Origin: a virus
DNA length: 35,343 nt
Strand: one strand, 5' to 3'
Virus record (IMG/VR): IMGVR_UViG_3300024509_000031
Location: 1 to 35,343 of that record
Numbering within the stretch: the first letter of the stretch is position 1; every line of letters begins with the position of its first letter. The translations under genes were made by a program, and so were the position numbers. This document shows, one piece after another, positions 16,896-35,343 of this stretch. The notes beneath the pieces were generated by a model. It was not told where the DNA came from. It ran no database searches and was given only the letters and a program-made list of their open reading frames with translations.

Positions 16896-17696
16896 TTACC
16901 AAAAATTGGTAGCACCTTCAGGTGCTTCGTATGTAGTTAAATGATGAACTATTTCAGTATTGAAAGATGCCGTATCTTTTGGATATGGTTTAATTTCATG
17001 CTTCAATCGTTTCATCAAATCCTTTTTTTCTTTTTTATCTTGAGCAAGTATCTGAACATATCTATGCTTTGGTGGTTCTTCCCTTCTCCAAAACTCTTTA
17101 TATCCTTGCTTACCAATTTCTAATTTCAAATGGTCTAAGTTGCCACTACCCCACATTGAGAATACTGTCCTACTATGAATCCAATCGTATGGGTCTTTTT
17201 GTAATGATATACCCCAATTAGGCATCAATGCAATATCGGTTGATAATCCCTGATAAATCCAATTGGTAGCTTGATAAATTCCGCCTAAATGAGCTTGTCC
17301 ATTATCAGCATATGAAAGTAATACTTTAATATTCTTATCATTTTCTTTTAACCATTTGAAAGATTGTCCTAATGCATAAGATTCAATATTAGAACCATAA
17401 CCATCATCACAATATAAACGAGTTAATTCTAAAATGTTATCTTTGGTTAATCCTTCACAAATAGAAGTTGATGCCTTTGCTCCAACAGGAAAACCATAGA
17501 TTAAACAACCTATAAGTTTATCACCATCAAAAGTACTAGAATCTTCAGCTTTATAGTAAATTCCAATTGCGTATCTACAAGCTGTCCAAGCATGAGTATA
17601 GTGTTTCTTTACAATCATATCTTTAGCGATACTCTTTGCTATTGGAGCAACATATACTTTAGATACATCACAATATTGTTTACCTTCTACTTTCAT
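16896..17696 (-). CDS. Mom-like DNA-modification acyltransferase homologue, copy 1
   Basis: I use the ATG at 17696, which gives MKVEGKQYCD, identical to the start of copy 2; a TTG nine bases upstream is unlikely. The 266-residue protein follows the Mom-like pattern. A KKHYTHAW segment is followed by an AIGIYY strand, LIGCLIYGFPVG, NILELTRLYC, the helix SNIESYALGQSFKWL, VLLSYADNGQAHLGG and IYQATNWIYQG. Phage Mu Mom belongs to a GNAT-like family and converts adenine to N6-carbamoylmethyladenine, protecting DNA from restriction. The C-terminal KHRYVQILAQDKKEKKDLMKR is basic and may bind DNA. It is the last gene before the DUF262-HNH promoter. The chemistry here is not predictable from sequence alone. 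Confidence 0.72.
   Translation of the reverse strand: MKVEGKQYCDVSKVYVAPIAKSIAKDMIVKKHYTHAWTACRYAIGIYYKAEDSSTFDGDKLIGCLIYGFPVGAKASTSICEGLTKDNILELTRLYCDDGYGSNIESYALGQSFKWLKENDKNIKVLLSYADNGQAHLGGIYQATNWIYQGLSTDIALMPNWGISLQKDPYDWIHSRTVFSMWGSGNLDHLKLEIGKQGYKEFWRREEPPKHRYVQILAQDKKEKKDLMKRLKHEIKPYPKDTASFNTEIVHHLTTYEAPEGATNFW
17669..17696. repeat. 28-bp direct repeat, copy A (5' end of Mom-like copy 1)
   Basis: The 28 bases ending at the start codon of copy 1 are identical to 18742-18769 at the start of copy 2. The flanks diverge, which points to a tandem duplication or gene conversion at the 5' ends. Confidence 0.85.
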
Positions 17697-17698
17697 TA

Positions 17699-17968
17699 TT
17701 ACCAATACTTTTTACCATCTTTTTTAGCATCCTTCTTAGCATCAGCTGCTTTTTCTAAGATTGATTTTTTCTTTTCTAACTTTGCTTCCTTTTGCTGCTT
17801 CTTCATCATTTTATCGTAACCTGCTGGAAATTTGTTTATGACTTCTATTGGTCCATTTGGAAATTTCTTTAAATCATATTTCCAAATAGATTCAGTTCCA
17901 TCATCATCTTTATAGGTTACTTCAAACTTTACAGGTTTATCAGGAGTTTTTTCAGGCCACCTTCCCAT
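17699..17968 (-). CDS. Small basic hypothetical protein between the Mom-like genes, 89 aa
   Basis: The protein has a short beta-rich start (KFEVTYKDDDGTESIWKYDL), a middle FPNGPIEVINKFPAGYDKM and a very Lys-rich helical tail (KKQQKEAKLEKKKSILEKAA). The tail suggests a DNA- or RNA-contacting helix. It has its own promoter match (17983-18014), which overlaps the end of copy 2. Its stop lies 2 bases before the ATG of Mom-like copy 1, so those two are likely co-translated. It may be a partner of the Mom-like enzymes, but no family is recognised. Confidence 0.65.
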   Translation of the reverse strand: MGRWPEKTPDKPVKFEVTYKDDDGTESIWKYDLKKFPNGPIEVINKFPAGYDKMMKKQQKEAKLEKKKSILEKAADAKKDAKKDGKKYW

Positions 17969-17982
17969 ATATTAATTTTATA

Positions 17983-18014
17983 CAAATATACGAAATTATT
18001 TTGAATCTACCAAA
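17983..18014 (-). promoter_or_regulatory. Bacteroidetes-type promoter for the 89-aa gene and Mom-like copy 1
   Basis: On the minus strand TTTG (18011-18014) and TATATTTG (17983-17990) are 20 bases apart. The -33 box lies within the last codons of Mom-like copy 2. The leader to the ATG at 17968 is under 15 bases. Confidence 0.65.
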
Positions 18015-18769
18015 TCTATCGGGTCCATCTTATATACCTCATCAATAATATCCAACTCTACTTTTGGATAGGGTAAGACCTCATGTTTAAGCGATTTTAA
18101 GAGTGCTTTTTTCTCCTTTTTATCTTTGGTTAGAATATACACATATCGGTGCTTACGTGGTTCTCTTTTAATCCAGAATGGGCTTGTAACCATTGTCTGA
18201 ATTATCTTCGGGTCATTCGTTCCGTACTTTACATAAGAAGTCCGAGAATGATGCCATTCATCATCTTCACTCCATTTGAAAGACCAACTATCTGACCATC
18301 TGATTTTATTACCCTGATATATCCAATTCGTAGCTTGATATACCGTTCCTAAGTGCCCAGCGTTTGGGTCTGAATAAGATATTAGGGCTTTGATACGAGG
18401 TACATTAGTTCTTAACCACTCGAAAGTTTGTCCAACAAACCAACTCTCAATGTTACTACCATATCCATCGAATACGAATAGTCTTGTCAATTCTAATACA
18501 CCATCTCTAGGAAGTAATTCGGAAATTGATGCGCCGGCATTTCTACCAACCGGGTCACCATAACAGGCTACTCCAACTAATTGTTCATTCACTCCACTAA
18601 AGAAAGAATGTTCTTCATCAGAAAGATAAAATAAGCCTATGGCATAGGATACCTTTGTCCATATCCCACTGTAATGGTTATTGACAATAATATCCTTTGC
18701 AATACTTTTATTTATTTCTCTTATTGAGAATTTAGATATGTCACAATATTGTTTACCTTCTACTTTCAT
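17996..18769 (-). CDS. Mom-like DNA-modification acyltransferase homologue, copy 2
   Basis: The 257-residue protein is a clear paralogue of copy 1. It shares MKVEGKQYCD, an SIAKDIIVNNHYS segment, VLELTRLFVFDGYGSNIES, ALISYSDPNAGHLG, VYQATNWIYQG and the basic KHRYVYILTKDKKEKK tail. About half of the first 150 residues are identical by eye. The two differ in the middle (a WSFKWSEDDEWHH insert here), so substrate specificity could differ. The ATG overlaps the stop of the upstream HTH gene by four bases (ATGA). As in copy 1, the pattern matches Mom-like proteins that modify adenine to evade restriction; the exact reaction is unknown. Confidence 0.72.
   Translation of the reverse strand: MKVEGKQYCDISKFSIREINKSIAKDIIVNNHYSGIWTKVSYAIGLFYLSDEEHSFFSGVNEQLVGVACYGDPVGRNAGASISELLPRDGVLELTRLFVFDGYGSNIESWFVGQTFEWLRTNVPRIKALISYSDPNAGHLGTVYQATNWIYQGNKIRWSDSWSFKWSEDDEWHHSRTSYVKYGTNDPKIIQTMVTSPFWIKREPRKHRYVYILTKDKKEKKALLKSLKHEVLPYPKVELDIIDEVYKMDPIDLVDSK
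18742..18769. repeat. 28-bp direct repeat, copy B (5' end of Mom-like copy 2)
   Basis: Identical to 17669-17696 over 28 bases. Both copies encode the shared N-terminus MKVEGKQYC. Confidence 0.85.
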
Positions 18770-26340: not shown

Positions 26341-26365
26341 AAAAAAGGGGAATTAATTTTCCCCT
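26341..26365 (-). terminator. Rho-independent terminator overlapping the end of the ADP-ribosyltransferase gene
   Basis: On the minus strand GGGGAA, a six-base loop and TTCCCC are followed by TTTTTT. The TAA stop of the gene (26353-26355) lies in the loop, so the hairpin is partly coding. Confidence 0.75.
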
Positions 26366-28215
26366 TCTTTTGTGTATAATAATGATGTTCTATTTGGATA
26401 TTGTAGATGCTTCTTTAAAATATCAGTTTCATTGTCATCTATAAACTCTCTTAGTTTAATTTCGTTTTTAGTACCAATTTGTTCTAATGTTATAATAGTA
26501 AAATTACGCCCGCCTTCCATTTTTTTAGTTTCTGTTTTCACAACTTTGTATTTATTATTAGATGGTAAAAGTACTTCATGTTGACCAGACCAACTTCCAA
26601 AATCATCACCAACCATACTATTTTTATTTTTAGCAGATACATTATCCACATTTGCATTCATACAAAATCCATTGAATGTATTTTTTGAATTTACCACTTT
26701 TATTATTATAGATTGGTTATTTGATTTATTTACCAATGCGTTTGCGTTACCAACATTATTAGCAAATTCAGTAGCTGTTGTTACATCAAATGAAAATGAA
26801 GATATTGGTAAATCAATAGTACTACCTTCTTTAAAAGATTTCATAAATTTAGAATAATCAGAAGAATTCATAGCCATACCTCTATACAACGCATTTGTAT
26901 GAACTGCAGGTGGTGGGTCTGATTTTAACATTTCATCAATTCTATTTAATGCATCTTTATTTATCATTGATTGATATGAGAACATATCATTTATATAATT
27001 CTTATTTTTCTTAGCTTGCGCTTTAACCCATTTAGCTTGATTTTTATCATTAGCTTGTGAAATATCTACAAAAGAATTATCCTTATCATCACCCTTTTCT
27101 TTTTTAATAAAATTACGAAGTCCACCATCTACAGTTGTTGGATTTTCTAATTCACTCTGCATTGTTTTATTCCAATCATCATCCGAAAGGTTTTTGTATT
27201 TTAATGGATATGCTAATTGTAAACTTGATAATTCATCCATACTATCAAGTTCATTATCCCTTCCAAAAAGAATAGTATTTCCTAATCTAGACAATACAAA
27301 CTCTGTTAAATTTTTAAAACCCCACTCTTTTAAATCTTCCTCATTTGGAGTAAATCCAGATATATCAAGAAACATTTCAGGATGTGATAATACTCTGTTT
27401 ACATCTATCTTAAATTTGTTTGCCACCTTTGCTACTTGTGCCGGAGTAAATGTTTCACTACCTATAATTTTATGCTTTATTTTTGTAAGTGCATTTGTTA
27501 TATCTTTAGTAGTATCTTTATTATATAATTTGGTTTTATCCGTTTCAGCTTTAGCTACTTTTTTATCTGCTTGCGTTTGAATTTCATTCGGGTCAATTCC
27601 TTTCTTAATTACATTTGCTTGTTTGTTTGAACTATCGGAATATACTTTGTAATAATAATCATCTGGAGTAACTCCATCAGGTGCATATTGTTTTGTTTCT
27701 AAATCTGATAAAATTAAATTAGCCATTAATTCTGATACAGATTGCTTTCTACCATCTTTATCTTTTATTTTAGTAGTTGCTCCTAATTTATTTATAAGAT
27801 TTAAATCGATACCATATTCGTCAGCAGTTGTTTTTATTATTTCTGGAGTTATATTTGATTGATAGAATCTAACATCCCTTACAATCTTACCATTTTTATT
27901 TTTTCTACTAAGAGTAATTAATGTATCACCATATTCTGCAGTACTGATTGCTTTTGCCGTTTCATCCGATGGTTCATTTTTTTTATCAATTGTACCACCT
28001 CTTTCCTTTTCGTAATCACCTTTAAATAAGTCAGAGGATTTTGGCGTTTCTACATCCTTTCCCTTTATTTGAGGGTTTTCATGTGTACCATTTTTAACTG
28101 CTGTATCTAAATTATCTTTGGTATCAAAATATACCAATTTACCCGTTTTTTTGGATATTGCAGAAAAATCCGTTGTTTTTGGTTTAGCTTCAAATAATTC
28201 CCTAAGTAAAATCAT
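26353..28215 (-). CDS. ADP-ribosyltransferase-like protein, probably packaged in the virion (Alt-like)
   Basis: The 620-residue protein has a Lys/Asp-rich, probably flexible N-terminal two-thirds and a C-terminal ADP-ribosyltransferase fold. The NAD-binding Arg is in LYRGM (R445). The S-T-S-type strand is PISSFSFDV (S472-S475), followed by TTATEFA. The catalytic turn is SGQHEVLLP, Q545-x-E547, in the Q/E-x-E position. T4 Alt and ModA use this fold to modify host RNA polymerase. The N-terminus MILLRELFEAK resembles T4 Alt (MELITELFDED) and contains an L-x-E site suited to a prohead protease, so it may be packaged and injected. It has its own terminator. The target is unknown. Confidence 0.75.
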   Translation of the reverse strand: MILLRELFEAKPKTTDFSAISKKTGKLVYFDTKDNLDTAVKNGTHENPQIKGKDVETPKSSDLFKGDYEKERGGTIDKKNEPSDETAKAISTAEYGDTLITLSRKNKNGKIVRDVRFYQSNITPEIIKTTADEYGIDLNLINKLGATTKIKDKDGRKQSVSELMANLILSDLETKQYAPDGVTPDDYYYKVYSDSSNKQANVIKKGIDPNEIQTQADKKVAKAETDKTKLYNKDTTKDITNALTKIKHKIIGSETFTPAQVAKVANKFKIDVNRVLSHPEMFLDISGFTPNEEDLKEWGFKNLTEFVLSRLGNTILFGRDNELDSMDELSSLQLAYPLKYKNLSDDDWNKTMQSELENPTTVDGGLRNFIKKEKGDDKDNSFVDISQANDKNQAKWVKAQAKKNKNYINDMFSYQSMINKDALNRIDEMLKSDPPPAVHTNALYRGMAMNSSDYSKFMKSFKEGSTIDLPISSFSFDVTTATEFANNVGNANALVNKSNNQSIIIKVVNSKNTFNGFCMNANVDNVSAKNKNSMVGDDFGSWSGQHEVLLPSNNKYKVVKTETKKMEGGRNFTIITLEQIGTKNEIKLREFIDDNETDILKKHLQYPNRTSLLYTKEGEN

Positions 28216-29105: not shown

Positions 29106-29534
29106 TTATTTGTTTTGTTCAGTTATAACTTCTTTTCCATCACCGAAATCAATTACTTCAAAAACTCTTGTCTGAATTTTCTTAGTTCCTTCGGCATTTG
29201 TTAATATGATTGAATTTTTAAACTTCTGCCAATTTATGACAAAAGATGTATCTAACACCCCACTATTTTCTTCTTTAACTAATTCGTTAAGAGCATTTAT
29301 TGTGTATAATGTATTAGATTCTTTCTTTCTATGTATTAAGATTGTGTTTTCCAACGGATTTTCAGGTTGGAAAGCTGTATCAATATTGTACGTGATGAAT
29401 AATTCATCTAAATTCGCCTTATTTTGGAGAATATAGATGTAATTGTAAACGATGTGGTAAGTTTCACGGATTAATTGTAAAGTATTTTGTAACTCACCCT
29501 TCGTTGTAAACGTACACAAAAGTTGTGTTTTCAT
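29106..29534 (-). CDS. Hypothetical protein upstream of the endolysin, 142 aa
   Basis: The mixed alpha/beta protein begins with a KTQLLCTFTTKGELQNTLQL strand-helix pair. It has a YIYILQNKANLDELFITYNI segment and an ENTILIHRKKESNTLYTINALNELV segment, then SFVINWQKFKNSIILT and a short C-terminal strand. Similar patterns occur in uncharacterised proteins of T4-like phages as far as I recall, but I cannot give a function. There is no signal peptide or membrane segment, so it is not an obvious holin. It is translationally close to the endolysin and probably in the same late unit. The start codon lies in an inverted repeat. Confidence 0.75.
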   Translation of the reverse strand: MKTQLLCTFTTKGELQNTLQLIRETYHIVYNYIYILQNKANLDELFITYNIDTAFQPENPLENTILIHRKKESNTLYTINALNELVKEENSGVLDTSFVINWQKFKNSIILTNAEGTKKIQTRVFEVIDFGDGKEVITEQNK

Positions 29535-29601: not shown

Positions 29602-32600
29602 CTATTTTTTCAAAATTCGGTTTCCTTTTACATCGTAACCATTTTTCCAAGCATTAATATTGGTTCTAGCCGAATTGTAAGATGTAGTAAGACCACCACC
29701 TCTATTATCAAACGCTCTAAAGTTCAATTTCCACAATTTTAAGTTAGTAGAACCAACATCAGTAGATGAATGATATTTTCCTTGCGAATCAATTACTTGG
29801 TGATTATGTTCGATTGTATTTAGTCCGTTTCCAGTATTTAAAGTTGCACCCCAAGAACAAGCCATAGCAAATGCCATAGGTCCTTGCTTTAAAATAAGTG
29901 TATTATCATATCCCAATGCAGCATCTAATTCTTTATCACTTTTTAAATATTTATTTAAATTATCTGCATATTTTTGGTTCACTTCCTTCATTCTATCAAA
30001 CAAAGGATTTAAATCTTTTAAACTTTTTGCACCAGCACCATCCAATACTTTTTGCATTTCTTTTTTACAATTTTTTATTACTTGTAAAACCGAAGGTAAA
30101 TCAGCTTTTCCGTTCTTTAAGTGTTTTTCAAATCCACTTTCTTTAAACATTTTAGCAAATTGCTTATCGTTATCAATTAAATCATTTCTAACACCCATAG
30201 TATATCCATAAACGCCAGGATGAGAAGCGTTTCTATTTCTATAATCCGGATTTGGATGGTACTTTTGATATTGTGCAGTTTCACCAGGAAACCCATAGTT
30301 ACTATATTGGTCACCACTCAATCCATATTTAACAGAAACAGATGAAACTCTTTCAATTTTAGTTCCACTTTTTCTAGATATTTTTAACTTATCACCAGAT
30401 GGGAAATTACCAACTGATGGTAAATAACACTCATCCCCTGCTGCAATTTCAGTATCATATAAAGACATTTCAGCAAATTGCTTCATCAATGCCCCAGTAA
30501 TAGTTTTATCTGAATTAGTTGCTATACCTTGAGCCATCATACCATAAGAATCACCAACAGCTTGTGCTGCTTGTTTTGATGGGATTGTATATTTTTTCAA
30601 TATATTTTCCATTCTTGATTGATGGTCTTGCAATGCTTGTATAACTTTTGGATTTATTTCAGGATATTTTTTTAATTCATCTATTGTTCTTTTAATAGAT
30701 TCATTATTTTTAATAGAATGTTGTAAGTACAATTTAGCATTTTTACCACCAGACGGTCCAATTAAATTTCCGTTTGCATCTAATGGTCCATGTAATTCGT
30801 AGAATTTTTTATCTAAGAATGATAATGGTTCTGTACTAAATAAATTAGCTATAAACTTATCTTTTATATTTCCTTTTGCATCATATGCAACTGATTTATC
30901 TTTAAGGTCTGGTTTTGCTGATTTTGCTAAGCTATCACTTAAACTTGATTTTTTAGAACCACCACCTAAATTTGCTCCAGTAGATTTTAAATCAGCTAAA
31001 AGTTTTTCAGTAAATGCATTACCACCACCTAATATTTTTTCTTTAGCATGTGATTTTTTATCATTACCACCAAATATACCTAAGTAAACTTTCTTTTCAT
31101 TTGAAGAACCATATAATTTATACTTATCAACTAATTGAGCGCCTAACTGAGCTTTTTTAGATGTATTCGATGTTGAATAAAATTCTTTAACATCTTCCAT
31201 AAAGCTTTTGAATATTTTCTTTTCATCCTTAGAAAAAATCTCCATACTCTTTTGTAAAGTTGATGCAGCAAATGCTTTATTTGCCATATCAATACCAGAC
31301 CCCTTTTCAGCGGGAACTTTTGGTTCTTTTTCTTTTGCTATTTTAGCTAAAGCTGTTTTTTCTCTACCAACTCTTGCTTGTACATCTTTATCTTGTGCTA
31401 CAGTTGGTTTTGGTTGTTTTGATTTTCCTAATTCTTTATCACTAACTCCAGATTTTTTAAGTAATTTAACCGCCTGATTATATGCTTGAACTTGCCCTTT
31501 ATTTGCAGAATTTTTATATTTTAATGCAGTTGATACTTTTACTTCGTGGTCTCCTTTTTCATCTTTATATTTTACATATTGATTTAGTACATCATCCGTT
31601 TTTTGAATTGGATTTGCTTCTTCTATAAAATCATTAATAATTCCTTCAATCAACGAATCAATCAAAGGTAAATGTTCTTCTTTAATTTCTTGCATTTCGT
31701 TTTTATCTTTCTTTTCGTTATATGAATCAATCATATCTTCCATTTGTTCTTGACTAATTTCCATATCTTCCAATCCTTTCGCAATCAATTCAGCAAATTT
31801 TTCCATATTTGCATCCATTTCTGCTTCTCCTTCAATATCTGCAAATAATGCAGCTCTACCCGCTCCTTTAAGGATTGTTTCACCTATAACGTGTGGTACA
31901 AATTCAACGGCAACGTGTTTTGCAAAGGCAGCTGCACCATGTGATAAACCACCCATAGCTGCACCAAATATAGCAGTAGTTGCAATTTTTATACCAACTG
32001 ATTTAAGTGCATCTTTTTCGTGGTCATTTAATTTTTCTCCTTTGAAAAATTTACCAACACCTTTACCCGCTTCTTTAAATTCTGCTATTTCATGTTGTGC
32101 ACCATGTTTAATAGCTTTCCATGCACCTTTAGCTTTATCTTTAATAGCTTGTGCTAATTCTCTTCTTGGCTCTGAGCCAGCTTTGTAATAACCTTTTTCA
32201 AAGAATTCTTTTTCTTCTTTATGCCACTTTGATATTTTATCTTTAATCTTTTGTGTAAGACCTTTTTTATCCAATGAACTTACTTGTTTAGGCTGTTCAT
32301 CTGGTGTTTCTTTATTTGCATCTGCTTTTTTAGCCGCAATTCCCATATCTTCTGCAAATTTGTTTGCCATTGGGATAGCATCTTTAATGTCTTGGTCTAA
32401 CACCTGAACTTTCATCGGAATTTGTTTTTCCGGATGTTTAGCGTTATAAGCTGCTACTGCTGCCCAACGGTGGTGGCCATCAATTACATATCCATCTCTA
32501 CTCACATAGATTGGTGCGGTAATCTTTTCATGCTCTGGATTTTCTTCTAATGCTCCCATCATACCAACTACCTTAGCTCCAACTAATTCGGATTGAGTTG

Positions 32601-33657
32601 CTTTTAATTTATCAGCAGGAACTTCAGTTTGAGTTACCTTAATATTTTTTTGTTTCAACATTTCTCTGAATACCGGCTCCGTATCTACTTCACCACCTTT
32701 ATCAGTTGGCATATCTGCTGCTCTAGTGCCAGGCTGTGCTTTACCTTTGAATTGTGGCATCTCTGAACGAGGTATTCCTAAGTTATCATCACAATATAAG
32801 TTTGTACCAGGTACAGTGATTTGACAAAGGTTGATGTTTGGTGCCTTCTCACCTTTAGAGATAGCATCATCAACCATCTTTTGTACCTTACTAATATCGG
32901 TATTGAACTTTTGCAAGTCTTCTTTATCAACTCCATCCGGAATATCAGATGCTGCACCAAATGTTTCTGGGTCAGCTTGTGGAATTTCATTTTGAACGTC
33001 TTGTGCTGGGATTGGATTGAAATCAGTATCTTCTTTTGGTTTTATTTCTTTATCTGCTTCAGTATCCTTTTCTTCAGCATCTTTTGCTAATTGAGCTTGT
33101 GTTTCCTTCTCTTTAGCCAATCTTTGTCCCATAGCAGGGTCTGCTTTTGGGTCATACATTGGTGCTGCTTTTTGAATTGGGTCTTCTTTTGGAGCTCCAC
33201 CTTCTGCACCACCTTTGTCACCTTTTGGCTCTTCTGCACCTTGTGGTTTACCTTCACCACCTAAATCTTGATTAATAGCATCTCTTTCTGGCGAACCTTC
33301 CGGTGGTAATACTTTTTCAGCCGCATCTCTAGCAGGTGTCCCTTCTGGTTGTCTTAGTAAATTACCAACAATACCTTCTTTATCATTTCCTTGCTTATCT
33401 TTATAACTTACTTTTTTATTTAAGATAGGATTTGTAAATGATTTATCAGCTTCTTTTACGTTTTCAGGTGTTTTACCTTTTTCGGTTAATAAATTTTCAA
33501 CCAAGTCTTTCTTAATATGAGATAACCCCATTTCAGAAAGTACAATACCCAATTCCTTTAAGTGGATTGGGTTCTTTGGATTTGGCATCCCATCATCAAC
33601 TCGGAACGCCCATTCAGAAAGTATTTCGTTAATTAATTCAGATAAATTCATATTCAT
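29602..33657 (-). CDS. Large polyvalent-like protein with ParB-like domain, 1351 aa
   Basis: The N-terminus (MNMNLSELINEILSEW) is a short amphipathic helix ending in an L-x-E site, like a capsid-targeting peptide. Residues about 90-300 are low-complexity, charged and Pro/Gly-rich. A ParB/sulfiredoxin-like domain follows (about 365-440) with GYVIDGHHRWAAV, the motif of ParB nucleotide-binding proteins. A Lys-rich helical region leads to a hydrophobic Gly/Ala segment near residues 565-620 (IATTAIFGAAMGGLSHGAAA) that could contact membrane. More charged helices precede a C-terminal domain (about 1060-1351; GYTMGVRNDLI, GNGLNTIEHNHQVI) I do not recognise. Such multi-domain proteins are typically packaged and injected. 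Its ATG overlaps the nuclease stop (TAATG). Confidence 0.8.
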   Translation of the reverse strand: MNMNLSELINEILSEWAFRVDDGMPNPKNPIHLKELGIVLSEMGLSHIKKDLVENLLTEKGKTPENVKEADKSFTNPILNKKVSYKDKQGNDKEGIVGNLLRQPEGTPARDAAEKVLPPEGSPERDAINQDLGGEGKPQGAEEPKGDKGGAEGGAPKEDPIQKAAPMYDPKADPAMGQRLAKEKETQAQLAKDAEEKDTEADKEIKPKEDTDFNPIPAQDVQNEIPQADPETFGAASDIPDGVDKEDLQKFNTDISKVQKMVDDAISKGEKAPNINLCQITVPGTNLYCDDNLGIPRSEMPQFKGKAQPGTRAADMPTDKGGEVDTEPVFREMLKQKNIKVTQTEVPADKLKATQSELVGAKVVGMMGALEENPEHEKITAPIYVSRDGYVIDGHHRWAAVAAYNAKHPEKQIPMKVQVLDQDIKDAIPMANKFAEDMGIAAKKADANKETPDEQPKQVSSLDKKGLTQKIKDKISKWHKEEKEFFEKGYYKAGSEPRRELAQAIKDKAKGAWKAIKHGAQHEIAEFKEAGKGVGKFFKGEKLNDHEKDALKSVGIKIATTAIFGAAMGGLSHGAAAFAKHVAVEFVPHVIGETILKGAGRAALFADIEGEAEMDANMEKFAELIAKGLEDMEISQEQMEDMIDSYNEKKDKNEMQEIKEEHLPLIDSLIEGIINDFIEEANPIQKTDDVLNQYVKYKDEKGDHEVKVSTALKYKNSANKGQVQAYNQAVKLLKKSGVSDKELGKSKQPKPTVAQDKDVQARVGREKTALAKIAKEKEPKVPAEKGSGIDMANKAFAASTLQKSMEIFSKDEKKIFKSFMEDVKEFYSTSNTSKKAQLGAQLVDKYKLYGSSNEKKVYLGIFGGNDKKSHAKEKILGGGNAFTEKLLADLKSTGANLGGGSKKSSLSDSLAKSAKPDLKDKSVAYDAKGNIKDKFIANLFSTEPLSFLDKKFYELHGPLDANGNLIGPSGGKNAKLYLQHSIKNNESIKRTIDELKKYPEINPKVIQALQDHQSRMENILKKYTIPSKQAAQAVGDSYGMMAQGIATNSDKTITGALMKQFAEMSLYDTEIAAGDECYLPSVGNFPSGDKLKISRKSGTKIERVSSVSVKYGLSGDQYSNYGFPGETAQYQKYHPNPDYRNRNASHPGVYGYTMGVRNDLIDNDKQFAKMFKESGFEKHLKNGKADLPSVLQVIKNCKKEMQKVLDGAGAKSLKDLNPLFDRMKEVNQKYADNLNKYLKSDKELDAALGYDNTLILKQGPMAFAMACSWGATLNTGNGLNTIEHNHQVIDSQGKYHSSTDVGSTNLKLWKLNFRAFDNRGGGLTTSYNSARTNINAWKNGYDVKGNRILKK

Positions 33658-34262
33658 TAAAATTTGTGGTCTTCCGGTTCACATATCATTTCTAATTCAT
33701 CCCAGTGAAATTTAGGTTTTTGATTTAGAAATACAAAACATTTCCATTTACCTTGCTTTTCAAAATAAATGTGTTTTTGTAAATGTGATGGAACAGCTGC
33801 TCCAGTTGCTACTCTTTTAGCTGGAGTATCAAAGAAAGCCTTTATTAGTATTGTAAGATTTTCAGCATCATCCCATTTTCTTTCTTGTTCTTCTAATAAT
33901 CTCCACTCGCCTCTATTAAGGTATTGGTCTTGCATAAAACAATTTAGGTAAGAAAATGTTTGTTTTAAATTTGCTTCATTATCAGAGAAAGTTGCTGCAG
34001 GAGCACCATGTCCTTTATCGTAAATGTTTGCTTTGTAATCATCAGCATCTGAAGTTTTAATTCCCTTTTCAGTATAGAAATCCATTGAACCTCTATTAAC
34101 ATTTGTAGGACGGTTTGTTGAACGATACTTAATTATTAAGGGTTGTTCTAAAGATTGTGAATAAAGTACTTCAAACACTTCATTCTTAATTCTTACATCT
34201 GCCTGTCCTATTGATACCAATGAAACAAGCAAAAAGGATAAAAGGAACATAATTTTTCTCAT
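33657..34262 (-). CDS. Secreted NUC-type DNA/RNA non-specific endonuclease
   Basis: I start at the ATG at 34262, which gives a signal peptide (MRKIMFLLSFLLVSLVSIGQA) with a positive start, a Leu-rich core and a likely cut after SIGQA. An upstream TTG-type extension would overlap the previous gene. The 201-residue protein has the DRGH-family core: STNRPTNVNRGSM, YDKGHGAPAATF (the catalytic His in DKGH, an R-to-K change), TFSYLNCFMQDQYLNRGEW (metal-binding Asn) and RLLEEQER. The predicted mature enzyme is exported to the periplasm. It could destroy competing or incoming DNA or scavenge nucleotides; host genome breakdown is less likely from there. It is coupled to the 1351-aa gene. Confidence 0.82.
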   Translation of the reverse strand: MRKIMFLLSFLLVSLVSIGQADVRIKNEVFEVLYSQSLEQPLIIKYRSTNRPTNVNRGSMDFYTEKGIKTSDADDYKANIYDKGHGAPAATFSDNEANLKQTFSYLNCFMQDQYLNRGEWRLLEEQERKWDDAENLTILIKAFFDTPAKRVATGAAVPSHLQKHIYFEKQGKWKCFVFLNQKPKFHWDELEMICEPEDHKF

Positions 34263-34286
34263 ATTATAGCATATTTTTGTATATAC

Positions 34287-34296
34287 TATAAATATA
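34287..34296 (-). promoter_or_regulatory. Putative late-type promoter motif before the nuclease/polyvalent unit
   Basis: The minus strand reads TATATTTATA, exactly the motif, 25 bases upstream of the ATG at 34262. No TTTG lies at -33. It begins just after the stop of the polymerase-like gene. Confidence 0.4.
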
Positions 34297-34300
34297 CTTC

Positions 34301-35343
34301 TTAAAGGTTTCCGTAAGTTTTTCCCCAACTAGCTTTAACAGGGAAGCCACCATCTTCAATGATATCTTTCAAATCTTTAATGGTATTCTTATCAACATCA
34401 GTAGGTACATCAAATAAGAAAGAGTCATAAGTGTACAAATCTAATCTAATATCAGTACCCTTAATGTAATCCAATACCCTTCTCATTTTTTCCACATTCA
34501 TTTCAGTCTCTACGGCTTGGAGTAGGTAGTTGAATACTTTTTGTGGATTAGCTCCTTCAATCCAATCTAAAGGAATCATACGATGTGGTGTTTGTAGGAA
34601 TCCTCTTTTTTGGGTTTCCATCCATAGTTCATCAATATAATCAGCCACAGCCTTAAAATACGGAATTTGGCGGAAATCATCATCAATACCACCATACAAC
34701 AATTGGAATGTAACTCCCTTCGATTCCTCAATACTACAACCATATTGGTCAGCCAACCATTGGTGTACATTACCATCCGGCATATCAAACTTCACCAACT
34801 TACCAATTAGACGGGGGTGATATGCGTTATAATCCATTTGTAGGAATATCCCATCGGAAATGAAACAATCTCTACTACCATCCGATTTGTTTAGGGCGGC
34901 ATAGTTCACACCACCATGTCTATTGGATGGTCTACCTGTCACCGTAAATGGATTGTATTCGGTGTACACTACGTTATCTTTAGAAACTTGCTTTTGGGCT
35001 TGAGGCCATCTATCAACAAATTTTTCCCTATCGACCCTAATCCCAAATCGTTCAATATCTGAAAGGGTAGGTAAGAATATATCGTTATACCAATTGTAAG
35101 TTTTAGTTTTTTGTCTATAAGTTTTTCTTAATTCGGGTTCTATTGCTTCCGCAAGTTTAAGAATGGGAATAGATTGAATGATGTCCTCTTTGTAACCCTT
35201 ATGAATAAAGGGAGCCACTAAGTGTTGAATAGGTTGTTGATAGTCTATTGTTTCACCATGCTTTAAGAAGTAAGCGGTGTCAACATCATTCAATCCTTCC
35301 CTAATTGTAACAAAAGATTGTAGTAGCTTTTTCTTTTGAAAAA
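34301..35343 (-). CDS. Family A DNA polymerase-like protein (partial, N-terminus beyond window)
   Basis: The frame stays open through the right edge, so the true start is outside. At least 347 residues are visible. The polymerase I C-terminal motifs appear in order: YNPFTVTGRPSNRHGGVNY (the TVTGR segment) and motif A FLQMDYNAYHPRLIG, where DYSQIELR is expected. Motif B is SKGVTFQLLYGG, keeping the K, F and Y of the O-helix but lacking the leading Arg. Motif C is YTYDSFLFDVP, where HDE is expected. The metal-binding Asp in motifs A and C remain, but the motif C His and Glu are replaced by Tyr and Ser. The enzyme may be a divergent repair or accessory polymerase, separate from gp43, or catalytically weakened. 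Confidence 0.8.
   Translation of the reverse strand, partial: FQKKKLLQSFVTIREGLNDVDTAYFLKHGETIDYQQPIQHLVAPFIHKGYKEDIIQSIPILKLAEAIEPELRKTYRQKTKTYNWYNDIFLPTLSDIERFGIRVDREKFVDRWPQAQKQVSKDNVVYTEYNPFTVTGRPSNRHGGVNYAALNKSDGSRDCFISDGIFLQMDYNAYHPRLIGKLVKFDMPDGNVHQWLADQYGCSIEESKGVTFQLLYGGIDDDFRQIPYFKAVADYIDELWMETQKRGFLQTPHRMIPLDWIEGANPQKVFNYLLQAVETEMNVEKMRRVLDYIKGTDIRLDLYTYDSFLFDVPTDVDKNTIKDLKDIIEDGGFPVKASWGKTYGNL

Follow-up and report, generated by a model that had tools for sequence, protein, structure and literature searches.

The 35-kb virus contig analyzed here (35,343 nucleotides, hereafter the window) carries a T4-like set of replication genes. Its DNA polymerase shares 52.6% identity with that of Microcystis phage Mel-JY01 and 32-33% with those of T4-like cyanophages, and the source contig is a member of an uncultured T4-like group; it is a fragment that holds no protease gene. 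The open reading frame under study, P0001, starts with ATG and encodes 1351 amino acids (Table 1). Its coordinates had been proposed in an earlier note made from the sequence letters and proved exact, and since other contigs hold identical or 83%-identical copies, the frame is not a product of chance. The stop codon of the endonuclease gene upstream overlaps the start of P0001 by one base. Elsewhere in the window two neighboring, similar proteins were seen on the minus strand (17996-18769 and 16896-17705; MKVEGKQYCDVSK.../MKVEGKQYCDISK...), which have the look of a duplication.

Table 1. Features of P0001 and of its neighborhood, with positions in the window.
Feature	Residues	Position	Strand	Basis
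P0001, whole putative polyprotein	1-1351	29602..33657	(-)	ORF listing and relatives
Putative propeptide, capsid-targeting-like motif LSEWAFRVDDGMPNPKNPxHLKEL...LLTE	1-59	33481..33657	(-)	Conserved in relatives
ParB/sulfiredoxin-like module; DGHHR (393-397) at 32467-32481	278-450	32308..32826	(-)	phrog_2859, E 9.6e-20
Helical module with Gly/Ala hydrophobic stretch (about 550-605)	460-655	31693..32280	(-)	Relatives and hydropathy
Internal capsid-targeting-like helix ending LPLIDSLIEGIINDFIEE; predicted prohead-protease cut E680↓A681	660-680	31618..31680	(-)	Junction alignment
Post-junction linker, YKDEKGD..VSTALKYK type	681-794	31276..31617	(-)	Type also follows the N-terminal site of other proteins
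Cargo domain; conserved E1063, E1070, D1089, S1108-V-K1110, E1126	795-1351	29605..31275	(-)	Alignment, AF2 models
Secreted-type DNA/RNA non-specific endonuclease, conserved upstream neighbor		33657..34328	(-)	Endonuclease_NS, E 3.3e-19
142-aa LLCTFTT protein, right boundary of the slot		29106..29534	(-)	Conserved in nearly all loci
620-aa protein, second packaged-protein candidate		26353..28215	(-)	MILLRELFE↓A start, shared linker type, C-terminus ART-like by eye

Relatives and the N-terminal half

The number of relatives recovered depended on the part of P0001 used as query: the whole protein found three loci among viral contigs, the C-terminal part (the cargo) 11 loci and, once an alignment was used, 45, and residues 240-682 of the N-terminal part (the carrier, with its ParB-like domain) 54 viral contigs. 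Isolates were matched by the ParB-like region only, at 30-34% identity (tblastn), in F116-like giant virion proteins and in small proteins of Vibrio phage Bakedbeans and Aeromonas phage avDM6. Neither the helical module of the carrier nor the cargo had a match among 50,697 phage records, so that no isolate among them carries the cargo, and the cargo was likewise not matched in 84,980 prokaryote genomes. Mel-JY01, by its polymerase the nearest isolate, gave no carrier or cargo match beyond a weak ParB-like one and a nucleotidyltransferase-ligase protein. Searches of Pfam and PDB with the whole protein yielded no usable domain, and the Pfam scan no embedded peptidase, although a diverged one may be present.

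The capsid-targeting-like N-terminus and the ParB-type domain that had been read from the sequence in the earlier note were both recovered. The former is a conserved motif of about 60 residues which opens many phage proteins and in the relatives closes in LxE↓A (LNE↓A, LTE↓A or LLSE↓A, the arrow marking the presumed cut), whereas P0001 itself has LTE↓K; its 60 residues hold seven (L/I)xE motifs against 1.7 expected after shuffling. The same motif opens a 353-aa protein of a cultured phage, Flavobacterium phage immuto (L116:20004-21065), encoded near the terminase, portal, prohead protease and major capsid protein (MCP) genes; this phage may serve as a laboratory model, and its publication contains no virion proteomics. 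In the ParB-like module DGHHRW occupies residues 393-398, inside the predicted interval of 365-440, and D, G, H and R of the DGxHR active-site motif are invariant across 28 aligned sequences. Further matches to this motif stayed below the cutoff (ParBc_2 0.009, DUF1015 0.005, SerK 0.0013, PDB 1vk1 0.32). DUF1015 and the serine kinase SerK share the ParB/Srx fold, and as the weak matches point to families of this fold, SerK among them, nucleotide binding or kinase-like chemistry appears as possible for the domain as nuclease activity. The membrane-active segment suggested earlier survived in part: the Gly/Ala stretch is real, but with a best 19-residue Kyte-Doolittle mean of just 1.35 it is not a clear transmembrane helix. 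In four relatives (L079, L084, L086 and L087) the helical module stands near the N-terminus and precedes the ParB-like domain.

Internal junction and exchangeable cargo

Mapping of P0001 on 53 relatives revealed two sharp breakpoints, near residue 681 and near residue 450, the latter directly after the ParB-like domain. Between relatives, nucleotide homology breaks off around residues 650-750 (or 450) and restarts at most about 30 bases from the stop codon, and the flanks of the swapped stretch are 74-92% identical at the nucleotide level. Carriers (N-terminus and ParB-like domain) 92.7% identical bear cargo of different families, as in L056 and L058, and in L089 and L092 carriers 97.5% identical are joined to cargo families c60 and c03, which are distantly related by profile match. 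Besides the type of the window, c53, c03/c60, c56, c64, an HNH-like (L074) and a ligase-like cargo (L098/L102) were distinguished, the last with an N-terminal nucleotidyltransferase; HNH and ligase were assigned from motifs by eye. NMNAT-like nucleotidyltransferase proteins were observed in L098 (2245-6339), L102 (7802-11896), G003 (45026-47374) and Mel-JY01 (PP395634, 11243-13162), all except that of G003 with a ligase-like part carrying a KTDG motif. A ParB-like domain lies between the two parts in L098 and L102, and for the genes of G003 and Mel-JY01 the terminase gene is close by. By its sequence P0001 is a conserved carrier fused to an independent cargo, which is swapped as one block among phages that are otherwise alike, and this exchange suggests an arms race over the target.

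At the breakpoint near 681 relatives have an amphipathic segment such as LHLVDELMLEMIYGFIDE↓A, where P0001 has LPLIDSLIEGIINDFIEE↓A. The junction of P0001 reads FIEE↓A, in agreement with the L/I-x-E cleavage motif, and relatives of class 1 all end in xxE↓A or xxE↓V; a second type of junction reads YLLFE↓A. The linkers that follow are of three types and homologous to the sequence behind the N-terminal site of stand-alone proteins, the best match being that of L100 to the 620-aa protein of the window (E 3e-15). The linker of P0001 itself matches stand-alone N-termini weakly (E 6e-4), whereas the other types match strongly. Such a pattern of junction and linker is what would be expected of two capsid-targeted proteins that were fused. 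Given an internal capsid-targeting-like site together with wholesale swapping of the cargo, P0001 is therefore a probable two-part polyprotein. Two internal sites divide the polyprotein of L080 (9110-16468, 2452 residues) into three segments, the middle one of about 900 residues. (L/I)xE is a short motif, and its depletion in mature segments is not consistent: P0001 is low with 4 against about 10 and the carrier family has 399 against 451, but stand-alone relatives are enriched (248 against 178), so depletion was set aside as support for cleavage.

The swappable cargo comprises 671 residues (681-1351), with a conserved C-terminal domain of about 550. The earlier note had pointed to an unrecognized C-terminal domain of about 290 residues and to a search for it in other phages; a recurring domain is indeed present, as its 45 viral loci attest, and the size was too small. 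The glutamates, the aspartate, S1108-x-K1110 and E1126 (Table 1) are invariant across 28 relatives and would supply the catalytic D, xxK and further acidic residues of a PD-(D/E)xK enzyme. Over the E/D/SxK stretch the cargo profile matches family c53 (E 5e-8, 94.8% probability), in which AE, D and SxK are retained. In two AlphaFold (AF2) models of the cargo (pLDDT 78.6 and 78.8) the glutamate-bearing helix precedes the strands in order, and the SxK strand has low pLDDT. With these models Foldseek/VIA returned no significant fold, the best BFVD match being an unnamed protein (E 2.9e-3), and the restriction enzyme BbvCI scored within background (Z 5.7). A match of the cargo profile to a coiled-coil construct was rejected as compositional. 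A PD-XXK-E variant with a migrated carboxylate is known for Cfr10I/NgoMIV (PMC551604), and the cargo resembles it in that D, SxK and E follow in this order, S takes the place of the customary acidic residue and an invariant E stands 16 residues beyond K; however, no sequence or fold match to such nucleases was detectable. Because the SxK region is of low pLDDT and the fold searches lacked a significant match, we infer, rather than assert, that the cargo is probably a PD-(D/E)xK nuclease with a moved carboxylate.

Genomic slots and head-maturation genes

Nearly all carrier and cargo loci share one gene order, in which polymerase, (nuclease), X, 142-aa protein, (endolysin), (second packaged protein), SSB and RecA follow each other, X being a fusion of carrier and cargo or else a cargo that stands alone and has an N-terminal motif of its own. 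Cargo of the P0001 type is a stand-alone gene in this slot in other phages. The slot belongs to the neighborhood of replication genes, not to the head cluster. The proteins of a second slot, beside the endolysin, are smaller; their N-terminus is constant (LFE↓A or similar, followed by a linker), whereas their C-termini are mosaic. To this slot belongs the 620-aa protein of the window, whose linker type is shared with the cargo of other carriers; its C-terminus displays RG..SFS..QHE, ART-like by eye. The relatives in this slot in L054-L103 share the N-terminus, have mosaic middles and often carry a terminal ESTKLTSMIKK tag.

Four long contigs with carrier or cargo relatives encode a gp21-type prohead protease (PF03420). 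One of these, G003, encodes the capsid protein and a polyprotein as well, and the capsid proteins of G003 and G002 have a junction-like LLDE↓A near residue 61. In L041 a cargo-type protein is encoded directly upstream of the prohead protease and MCP genes. The gp21 protease of T4 cuts after L/I-X-E (PMC9026906).

Interpretation and known systems

On balance we favor the reading of P0001 as a polymorphic polyprotein that is packaged in the head, cleaved by the prohead protease and delivers a swappable nuclease cargo. A carrier with propeptide-like N-terminus, ParB/Srx-like domain and helical module is fused to a cargo with a capsid-targeting-like start of its own; both halves would enter the prohead, the gp21-type protease of the phage would cut near residue 59 and behind E680, and the two mature products would be ejected together with the DNA. 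The cargo, presumably a PD-(D/E)xK-type nuclease with S-x-K and moved glutamate that cuts DNA or RNA, would be directed early on at nucleic acid of the host, at rival phages or at defence, and the ParB/Srx domain may bind nucleotide or DNA. What this reading adds to the earlier note is a C-terminal half that appears to be an exchangeable, separately targeted cargo.

Packaging and cleavage could proceed as proposed with a cargo that is no nuclease but a structural filler, an inhibitor or another enzyme. Its lack of a significant fold or family match and the moderate AF2 confidence would fit; the E/D/SxK pattern, however, is invariant and recurs in a second cargo family, and the alternative cargo of L074 reads by eye as an HNH nuclease. 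A cargo that is no nuclease is somewhat unlikely. That P0001 is a conventional polyvalent protein, packaged and injected uncut with the internal helix as a structural linker, is unlikely. Some polyvalent proteins are indeed packaged unprocessed (PMC5512222), and some of the F116-like giant proteins with the ParB-like domain are annotated as structural or internal virion proteins, but the internal sequence has the build of an N-terminus, a helix ending in xxE↓A before a linker homologous to real N-termini, and marks the exact point of the swap.

The position of the slot between the genes for DNA polymerase and SSB/RecA is in favor of an unpackaged, replication-associated protein of the infected cell, whose ParB-like and cargo domains serve phage DNA metabolism. 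Propeptide-like N-termini, the cargo relative of L041 adjoining prohead protease and MCP, a second slot by the endolysin with products resembling T4 internal proteins, and the swapping of cargo, a behavior uncommon among replication genes, make this unlikely. Translation from a second, internal start, giving two proteins from one gene with no proteolysis, has ATG directly before the internal helix in L066 and L068 in its favor; an internal start codon is nevertheless not conserved, since the codon at that place is GTA in most relatives and ATT in P0001, whose nearest ATG lies ten codons upstream, and this origin of the two halves is very improbable.

The polyvalent proteins of phages and conjugative elements (Iyer et al. 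2017, PMC5512222) are, like P0001, large, multidomain and probably injected, with a ParB/Srx-type domain and mosaic domain composition. To this extent the polyvalent-like reading of the earlier note holds, though not for a clear membrane segment. In polyvalent proteins an embedded metallopeptidase that frees the domains is common but not universal. Iyer et al. describe release by embedded peptidases and report that DdrB-type ParB domains occur without other DNase domains (PMC5512222), whereas in P0001 no embedded peptidase was recognized, the junctions are prohead-protease-like and a nuclease-like cargo follows the ParB-like domain. With T4 internal head proteins and Alt, P0001 shares a putative N-terminal propeptide ending in L/I-x-E, a gp21-type protease in the group and variable, presumably packaged proteins (PMC9026906); T4 internal proteins, however, are single units, whereas P0001 has a second targeting-like sequence between two large halves. 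Ejection proteins of SPN3US are, as P0001 would be, packaged in the head, and they have long propeptides cut by a gp21-like protease (PMC10052503), but there the propeptide is discarded, while in P0001 both sides of the internal site look functional. The family further resembles polymorphic toxin systems in its conserved trafficking half, its exchanged C-terminal effector and its sharp breakpoints. It differs in that delivery would be by the virion instead of a secretion system and in that no cognate variable immunity gene lies beside the cargo, the adjoining 142-aa gene being conserved and not variable; by this mark P0001 is not a polymorphic toxin. By analogy it is best filed as a polyprotein that would combine the workings of a T4 internal protein with those of a polymorphic toxin.

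We regard it as evenly balanced whether these proteins form an undescribed class of virion polyproteins of uncultured T4-like phages, in which a fixed slot holds a ParB-type carrier, an internal capsid-targeting and prohead-protease site and a nuclease cargo swapped as a cassette among close relatives, and head maturation frees the injected effectors (from up to three segments, as in L080). If true, a phage can make several effectors as one polyprotein for its head protease to process, and the nucleases that it injects are swapped as cassettes while the carrier before them stays constant, in a manner like that of polymorphic toxins; the slot would then provide a simple rule to find many uncharacterized effectors of early infection.
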